This document shows positions 309 through 1,655 of a DNA stretch of 35,067 nucleotides, piece after piece. The first letter of the stretch is position 1. The number at the start of each line of letters is the position of its first letter. The DNA is from Caldifarciminota bacterium (lineage in GTDB: Bacteria > Hydrothermota > 32-111). The stretch spans positions 1 through 35,067 of the forward strand of contig JAUVJU010000007.1 of assembly GCA_030592285.1 (NCBI GenBank). The letters are read 5' to 3'. The notes under the pieces are model-generated. The model was not told the DNA's origin. It saw only the letters and a list, made by a program, of their open reading frames with translations, and did not search any database. Both the position numbers and the translations under genes were made by a program.

Positions 309-385
309 GGGCCTATAGCTCAGTTGGTTAGAGCGCACGCCTGATAAGCGTGAGGTGGTTGGTTCAACTCCAACTAGGCCCACCA
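309..385 (+). tRNA. tRNA-Ile (GAT anticodon)
   Basis: A complete cloverleaf can be drawn. The acceptor stem GGGCCTA pairs with TAGGCCC, the D stem is GCTC/GAGC, and the anticodon stem CACGC/GCGTG encloses the loop CTGATAA (anticodon GAT). The T stem is GTTGG/CCAAC with loop TTCAACT. Discriminator A and CCA are encoded at 382-385. tRNA-Ile is the usual first tRNA in bacterial 16S-23S spacers. Here a protein gene follows 27 bases later instead of tRNA-Ala. Confidence 0.97.
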
Positions 386-412
386 TAATTATAATGATGC
401 AGGGAGATTATT

Positions 413-1582
413 ATGAATTACAAAAAAATATTTTTCATTTTATTTTTATTATCATTATATTTATTTATAGTAGGTTCCGGAACATACTGGAATACATTAA
501 ACCAAAATCCATTTTCAATATATGACATCTCTTCAATTACAGTTTATCCTACAGTTATGCTTGATGATGTTGGATTAAAACAGGAAATAGTTTTTGATTA
601 TTCATCAGATTATGTAAATTTTATTGGATCCATACAGGGAGAATACGGAAGAATAGGACTATTTATCTATAAGAGCGAAGATAATTATTTGCAGTCATAT
701 TTGCAGCAATTCACAAATAGAATAATTGATCCAATAATAATAGGTACATTTGCAGGTAAAAAAATTGGAAAGGTAAATATTGCAATTGGAGCAAAGGGCT
801 TTATGGTTAAGGATTATACTGTTGATGATCTTTCGGTATATGATAATATTAATGCTGATTTTTCACAAATACAATTAAATCCTTCATTTTCTGTTCAATT
901 GCCTGGAAATATAATTGCTGAAATAAGTCCGGAAATTATTTTAAGATCAGGAAATTACGAGGATTATATTAAAACAGTAGAATCAGAAAACAATATTGGC
1001 TATTCAGTGAATGGTAGAGTGATTCAAAATATAAGTGGAAATAATATTCAGGTTTTTGCACATTACTCATCACAGCCATGTTCTTATATATTGACTGAAA
1101 ATGATCAGACAGATAATTATTTTAGTAAAAAAGATTCTTTAGAAATTGGATTATTATTATGTCTGGAAACTTTTAATTATATTAATTCCTATGTAGGAAT
1201 TAATTATGTTAATACAGTTCTTTTTGATAGTTTGAGATACTATAATGGATCTGATTCAAAAAATAGACAAACAGTTACTATTTTTCCTGAAACAAATTTT
1301 GGATTTGATGTATTCATTAATAGACATATTAGTCTTCAATTTGGAGTAAAAGGACAATGGATAAATTCAATAGAAGAATTATCTCCTAGTCTTAATCCTC
1401 AAAAAAATGAAACATCTTTTTCATGGGATTATTTATTAGGAACAAGATTAAAATATAATAATTTTATAATTGATTTTGGTTTTGGAAAAAACATTTTATC
1501 TATTCCATTTATTTTGTCAGGCAATACACTTGCTGATTCAGAAATCAGATTTGGTGTTTCCTATAATGGTTTTGAATATTAA
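413..1582 (+). CDS. Predicted outer-membrane beta-barrel protein encoded inside the rRNA operon
   Basis: The gene encodes 389 residues. ATG 413 is preceded by AGGGAG at 401-406 with 6 bases between, a good ribosome site. The N-terminus is Lys-rich then hydrophobic (about residues 4-21), a likely Sec signal. The rest has alternating polar/hydrophobic segments rich in Tyr, Asn, Ile and Gly, with antiparallel barrel-like strands, and ends in aromatic Tyr as outer-membrane barrels often do. I recognise no named family, so function is unknown; a small porin-like or surface protein is an inference. The gene fills the spacer between tRNA-Ile and tRNA-Ala. It has no obvious promoter of its own, so it is probably transcribed from the rRNA promoter. 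Its TAA stop (1580-1582) is immediately followed by tRNA-Ala. Base composition and codon use look like neighbouring genes, so it does not appear to be a recent phage or intron-type insertion. Confidence 0.85.
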   Translation: MNYKKIFFILFLLSLYLFIVGSGTYWNTLNQNPFSIYDISSITVYPTVMLDDVGLKQEIVFDYSSDYVNFIGSIQGEYGRIGLFIYKSEDNYLQSYLQQFTNRIIDPIIIGTFAGKKIGKVNIAIGAKGFMVKDYTVDDLSVYDNINADFSQIQLNPSFSVQLPGNIIAEISPEIILRSGNYEDYIKTVESENNIGYSVNGRVIQNISGNNIQVFAHYSSQPCSYILTENDQTDNYFSKKDSLEIGLLLCLETFNYINSYVGINYVNTVLFDSLRYYNGSDSKNRQTVTIFPETNFGFDVFINRHISLQFGVKGQWINSIEELSPSLNPQKNETSFSWDYLLGTRLKYNNFIIDFGFGKNILSIPFILSGNTLADSEIRFGVSYNGFEY

Positions 1583-1655
1583 GGGGGTATAGCTCAGCTG
1601 GGAGAGCACCTGCTTTGCAAGCAGGGGGTCAGCGGTTCAAGTCCGCTTACCTCCA
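1583..1655 (+). tRNA. tRNA-Ala (TGC anticodon), CCA not encoded
   Basis: The cloverleaf has acceptor GGGGGTA pairing with TACCTCC. This includes the G3-U70 wobble that identifies tRNA-Ala. The D stem is GCTC/GAGC, the anticodon stem CCTGC/GCAGG holds loop TTTGCAA, and the T stem is GCGGT-type with loop TTCAAGT. After discriminator A1655 the sequence is CTTTTTTT rather than CCA, so CCA must be added enzymatically, unlike the tRNA-Ile of the same operon. The first base directly follows the stop codon of the preceding protein gene. Confidence 0.97.

Follow-up and report, generated by a model that had tools for sequence, protein, structure and literature searches.

A PopA-like outer-membrane barrel gene lies between tRNA-Ile and tRNA-Ala behind 16S rRNA in the bacterial phylum WOR-3

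The window, a stretch of 35,067 nt from a Caldifarciminota bacterium (contig JAUVJU010000007.1; phylum label WOR-3), carries in the order 16S–tRNA-Ile–gene–tRNA-Ala–23S–5S, all on the + strand, a protein gene where the general rule for rRNA operons allows only stable RNAs. This raises the question of whether such a gene is genuine, what it encodes, and whether it works as part of the rRNA unit in which it lies. The gene is present once in the genome (G000; 2.14 Mb, 97 % complete, in 205 contigs), which has one match each for 23S and 5S, and no description of the arrangement was found in the open-access papers searched. The locus comprises the following elements.

1–259, + strand: 3′ end of 16S rRNA (Rfam RF00177, 257 bits, model positions 1276–1533); the contig begins within 16S
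309–385, + strand: tRNA-Ile (GAT), from ARAGORN and RF00005
386–412, + strand: gap of 27 nt between tRNA-Ile and the start codon, with a Shine–Dalgarno-like AGGGAG at 401–406
413–1582, + strand: gene for a predicted PopA-like 16-strand outer-membrane beta-barrel of 389 aa, ATG start (ORF, homologues, profiles, AlphaFold2/Foldseek)
1583–1656, + strand: tRNA-Ala (TGC), from ARAGORN; its first base directly follows the stop codon of the gene (TAA), distance 0
1657–1663, + strand: run of seven T directly 3′ of tRNA-Ala, a possible end of the 16S unit, judged from sequence
1685–1713, + strand: promoter-like site for 23S–5S, TTGACA-17-TATATT, with TG before the second hexamer (11/12 matches; equalled by 1/500 shuffles)
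1787–4794, + strand: 23S rRNA (RF02541, 2894 bits)
4842–4958, + strand: 5S rRNA (RF00001)

ARAGORN, Rfam and the ORF call agree on the gene of 389 codons, in the sense direction between tRNA-Ile and tRNA-Ala behind 16S, that the original prediction had described from the letters alone; the region it gave as 309–1655 starts correctly and ends one base short, as tRNA-Ala runs to 1656. Both tRNAs are intact by ARAGORN, and 413–1582 is the sole large frame in the 16S–23S spacer, its product possessing a signal peptide-like helix at the N-terminus and an aromatic residue at the C-terminus. Separately, most of the WOR-3 loci read by eye have a motif resembling GGTAGTGCACNTTTTT beyond the 16S 3′ end (window 270–300, with counterparts in L002, L005, L026, L027 and L068), perhaps part of a 16S processing stem.

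The frame was taken to be genuinely coding because homologues of 388–389 aa occupy the same slot in relatives and because substitutions favour third positions. In the family of the window (f1, 5 genomes) the slot is kept, with the frame intact, in 5/5 genomes, with 27–31 % identity to the window protein, although one of them (G001) has an assembly gap within tRNA-Ala and another (G004) a contig that starts within tRNA-Ile. The original prediction had named a frame broken or absent in nearly all relatives as an outcome that would count against it, and it stands on this point. Differences between G003 and G001 fall on the three codon positions as 0.32/0.16/0.59, and dN/dS, the further check then proposed, is about 0.13–0.26 for the closer pairs, with dS near saturation in f1 and <1 for one pair each from f17 and the sister family f2 (4 genomes). 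A chance ORF or a pseudogene is ruled out by this conservation and codon-position pattern. A homing endonuclease or intron ORF was also rejected, as originally argued, with no such family matched in Pfam or NCBIfam and the tRNAs uninterrupted.

The window protein itself has no usable Pfam or NCBIfam match; Pfam DUF5442 (E 0.003) fell below the cut-off and was discarded. A profile of the f1 proteins nevertheless aligns end to end with PopA-like proteins from elsewhere in WOR-3 (probability 98.7, E 2.5e-16, 358 columns), the reversed and unrelated-barrel controls reaching ≤20 % over short alignments. HMMER searches with the proteins of three other families (f11, f14 and f15) found no f1 protein, and it was profile–profile comparison that joined them. 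The WOR-3 relatives match NF053618, the NCBIfam 'PopA family porin-like outer membrane protein' (E 3e-7 to 4.5e-13), with a best score of 49 bits against a curated cut-off of 150 bits and no match for the window protein, which places them outside the NCBIfam subfamily as distant relatives in the PopA superfamily. When a 21-row family profile was compared with all PDB sequences, only PopA fell below E = 1 (9ga1, E 3.2e-8; 9gf0, 1.7e-7), and the match is full length (residues 20–385 versus 2–333). Structural prediction agrees: the AlphaFold2 model from 5 rows (pLDDT 73) already had PopA as its best Foldseek match, and that from 21 rows (pLDDT 84, pTM 0.82) has 16 long strands and again finds PopA first (9ga1/9gf0, E 1.4e-9, TM 0.57–0.71). 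Profile, sequence and predicted fold thus identify the window protein as a distant outer-membrane barrel of the PopA superfamily, refining the outer-membrane-type protein of the original prediction to a PopA-type barrel of 16 strands.

PopA (Bd0427) is described, in the portions of its report available to us (Nat Commun 2025 16:6213, PMC12228718), as the main protein of the Bdellovibrio outer membrane, forming a pentamer that encloses lipid and having relatives in several groups of bacteria; its loop 8 is linked there to oligomer size and measures 19 residues in the pentamer. The window protein shares with it the 16-strand barrel, the full-length profile match and the best fold match, as well as a hydrophobic segment ahead of the last strand at the loop 8 place, about 18 residues long in the model against those 19, in which a PF(I/F)(L/I)SG segment is conserved. 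Unlike PopA proper, however, it scores under the NCBIfam cut-off and has an identity to PopA of just 12–14 %, and the same portions of PMC12228718 make no mention of rRNA. Lipid-trapping oligomers may accordingly be envisaged in WOR-3 bacteria, from what is a prediction of the monomer.

To gauge how far the arrangement extends, the DNA 3′ of 16S was read at about 85 loci across the phylum. A contig search with the single window protein gave no matches; the same search with a 5-row alignment found relatives in WOR-3. All four f2 genomes (4/4) have a barrel-like ORF of 385–389 aa in the slot, with a stop codon 10 nt inside tRNA-Ala, and its relation to the PopA-like proteins is weak (prob 90, E 1.8e-6, 238 columns; reversed control 0.3 %), making it probably, not certainly, PopA-like. 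At the f2 loci a conserved lipoprotein-like gene of ~275 aa follows tRNA-Ala (L026 5236–6072, L027 1669–2496, L178 1292–2122, L179 1341–2162), with a terminator-like hairpin after it in L026; the f2 23S is located elsewhere. The series 16S, tRNA-Ile, barrel ORF, tRNA-Ala recurs in f11, f14 and f15, one f15 genome (G036) having a second barrel gene next and no tRNA-Ala found at its locus. Further families were searched with the proteins from these three and then with the 21-row alignment, and PopA-like genes were seen to adjoin tRNA-Ala and/or tRNA-Ile also in f3, f8, f10, f12, f17, f21, f23, f26 and f36. In total, 14 WOR-3 families have a PopA-like gene or a similar barrel gene next to tRNA-Ile, tRNA-Ala or both, in every case on the strand of the tRNA. 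This linkage can be dispensed with, since f19, f27, f29 and f33 have PopA-like genes with neither tRNA nearby. In f19 (L093, L095) and f7 (L097, L100) a different barrel-like gene follows 16S–tRNA-Ile, no PopA relation being detected for these proteins, and in L093, L095 and L100 it is followed in turn by what is, by eye, an NFACT/RqcH-like gene.

Beyond WOR-3 the complete slot was found in at least three lineages. G248 has the full 16S–tRNA-Ile–PopA–tRNA-Ala–23S array; in G155 16S–tRNA-Ile–PopA–tRNA-Ala is followed by 23S and 5S beyond two more barrel-like ORFs (L270 4608–6275); and G390 carries three tandem PopA-like genes, as 16S–tRNA-Ile–PopA–PopA–PopA–tRNA-Ala–23S, with related layouts in G391, G393 and G275. 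A further contig (G176) starts with tRNA-Ile–PopA, and many other PopA-like genes outside WOR-3 are not beside either tRNA. G248 and G275 belong to different phyla and G155 to neither of these. A small 16S tree places G248 near WOR-3 with moderate support (SH-aLRT 86), so that it may be a sister lineage. In the PopA tree the tRNA-linked copies cluster (8 changes versus 18.6 when shuffled), but its depth is poorly resolved, so that it does not separate a single ancient origin from repeated capture.

With regard to transcription, candidate promoters were scored against the sigma-70 consensus, which may not be that of these phyla, whose own promoters are uncharacterised, and against shuffled controls that preserve base order statistics only. 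On this measure 6 of the 7 loci checked have near-consensus promoters ahead of 16S, and in 4 of them these are in tandem. A second near-consensus promoter lies just before 23S in the window, G003, G001, G248, G390 and, with 23S on a separate contig, G002 (≤1/500 shuffles as good). For the interval from 16S to the gene, four loci were compared with shuffles, and in none do the best matches rise above chance; in the window the best match from 16S to the start codon is 7/12, equalled by 480/500 shuffles. No classical terminator was found by a terminator scan of window positions 1–2000. Across several families on each side, a site of ≥10/12 within 120 nt upstream is present for 0/20 genes behind tRNA-Ile versus 11/12 not behind it (Fisher p 9e-8, a value that overstates the evidence because the sequences are related by descent and not independent); G026 was moved to the tRNA-Ile group once the 3′ part of that tRNA was seen at its contig start, the counts having originally been 0/19 versus 11/13. 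Genes with such a promoter of their own occur in f3, f10, f12 and f36, and in f10 and f36 (L223–L226, L228–L231) this is TTGAC(A/T/G)-16-TATAAT. As its second hexamer lies 5–9 nt from the ATG, these PopA-like messages are probably leaderless, and they would probably be co-transcribed with tRNA-Ala.

The simplest reading is that there are probably two units, 16S–tRNA-Ile–gene–tRNA-Ala and 23S–5S with its own promoter. The gene was originally placed inside the rRNA operon, and this holds for the 16S unit; it probably does not hold for one 16S–23S–5S transcript, as 23S–5S has a promoter-like site of its own. Together, the evidence supports the view that the 16S rRNA unit of WOR-3, and of some other lineages, includes a conserved PopA-like outer-membrane gene.

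Spacing within that unit is tight. The window message is flanked directly by same-strand tRNAs, 27 nt from tRNA-Ile and 0 nt from tRNA-Ala; across f1 the start codon lies 13–27 nt from tRNA-Ile and the stop 0, 0, 3 or 23 nt from tRNA-Ala, a distance that elsewhere is −10 (f2), −1 (f26), 0 (f11) or 1 (f21) nt. Such spacing suggests tRNA processing as the means of message release. Another message that abuts a tRNA is seen in f17 (L155, L158, L159): there the gene preceding tRNA-Ile has a stop codon that runs into the first base of this tRNA, and the PopA-like gene begins 22–69 nt on.

On these grounds we consider it probable that the gene is part of the 16S unit, that its mRNA is freed by tRNA processing, and that the supply of an abundant envelope protein is thereby tied to ribosome synthesis. 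RNA polymerase from the strong 16S promoters would run through tRNA-Ile, the popA-like gene and tRNA-Ala, with 23S–5S transcribed from its separate promoter; 3′ processing of tRNA-Ile and the RNase P cut at the 5′ end of tRNA-Ala would then release the mRNA, in the manner of the punctuation of mitochondrial transcripts. With one message copy per 16S transcript, barrel output would follow ribosome synthesis, and hence growth rate, a coupling that would suit an abundant surface protein needed as the envelope expands. Transcription at rRNA rates and the tie to growth rate, both put forward in the original prediction, are what we infer from promoter anatomy. The position of the stop codon counts against this proposal: where it abuts or overlaps tRNA-Ala, the RNase P cut leaves a message with no 3′ tail or no stop, and translation could drop. 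In f2 the stop is a TAG at tRNA-Ala positions 8–10, which would be lost if RNase P cut before the message was translated, and intact message and mature tRNA-Ala would be expected to compete. The wider proposition, of an ancient rRNA–tRNA–mRNA composite unit in several phyla that ties a major outer-membrane protein to 16S synthesis by tRNA punctuation, the same promoters setting surface and ribosome growth, we hold to be evenly balanced.

It is unlikely, though the best placed of the alternatives, that the gene is an old resident whose position has no bearing on its expression, with a separate promoter (one within tRNA-Ile, or one of a type that escapes recognition), an output uncoupled from rRNA, and tRNAs that are simply stable neighbours in compact genomes. 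The families that do use their own promoter are in keeping with this, as is the dependence of the coupling on sequence from phyla of uncharacterised promoters; the contrast between genes behind tRNA-Ile and those elsewhere argues against it, as does an f1 gap that leaves merely 13–27 nt for such a promoter. Less likely again is that the gene was a passenger, of no regulatory meaning, caught between 16S and 23S as the rRNA genes became unlinked. In most WOR-3 families, and in nearly all others than that of the window, no 23S lies closer than 3 kb to 16S, which marks these rRNA genes as unlinked, and the window spacer of 1527 bp itself exceeds, if barely, the limit of >1500 bp given for 'unlinked' operons in the available part of PMC7761764. 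A random passenger would vary between lineages, however, whereas the same gene type sits in the slot across many families, recurs outside the phylum, and keeps tRNA-Ile or tRNA-Ala as a neighbour even at loci that 16S has left. Lastly, an artefact of assembly or binning, produced by the collapse of an rRNA repeat, is most improbable, for although metagenome assemblies often break at rRNA regions and the G001, G004 and G026 loci lie at contig ends, whole arrays with orthologous proteins occur in the window, G003, G248, G155, G390 and large contigs (G275), and the same order in separate assemblies of many species and several other phylum-level lineages excludes misassembly for practical purposes.

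Unlinked rRNA genes have reportedly been surveyed by Brewer et al. in 2020. The WOR-3 loci resemble such operons in having 16S and 23S far apart or more than 1500 bp from each other, with separate promoters, but differ in the conserved protein gene within the 16S unit; the available text of unlinked-operon surveys sorts operons by spacer length, not content. Protein genes also lie in the long 16S–23S region of Borrelia, where they are metabolic or repair genes of one genus and not, as here, a barrel gene flanked by tRNA-Ile and tRNA-Ala and kept across phyla. In E. coli the tRNA-tufB operon is a bacterial tRNA–mRNA co-transcript. Punctuation by tRNAs is described for mitochondria (PMC8437803, in the part available). 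With these two the WOR-3 loci share a protein message directly beside tRNAs, one likely transcript and tRNA processing as the putative release, whilst here the message lies within the 16S–23S spacer, flanked by its two classical tRNAs, and encodes an outer-membrane barrel. A conserved envelope-protein gene in the 16S unit breaks the stable-RNA rule in many families and more than one phylum-level lineage, and suggests that the production of part of the cell surface keeps pace with that of ribosomes. If so, translated messages can exist within an rRNA transcript, and envelope output would scale simply with growth, making surface-to-ribosome coordination directly testable. Spacer tools and annotation pipelines may, for these phyla, drop a real and probably highly expressed gene.

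Several loci show further variation around the spacer. A transposase-like gene (REP/Y1-type by eye) with inverted repeats AGGGACGGTGGTT... lies between tRNA-Ala and 23S in G003 (L002 2766–3630), and G001 has a similar one after its assembly gap (L008 1530–2400). In G001, ~6.5 kb of secreted or barrel-like genes (L008 2415–8828) separate the element from 23S; these could reflect a genuine insertion or a misjoined scaffold (NN occurs at two places). Ordinary 16S–23S spacers of 145–291 bp, three with tRNA-Ile and/or tRNA-Ala, occur in a few WOR-3 bins (L066, L073, L087, L088), and are possibly contaminants or second operons.
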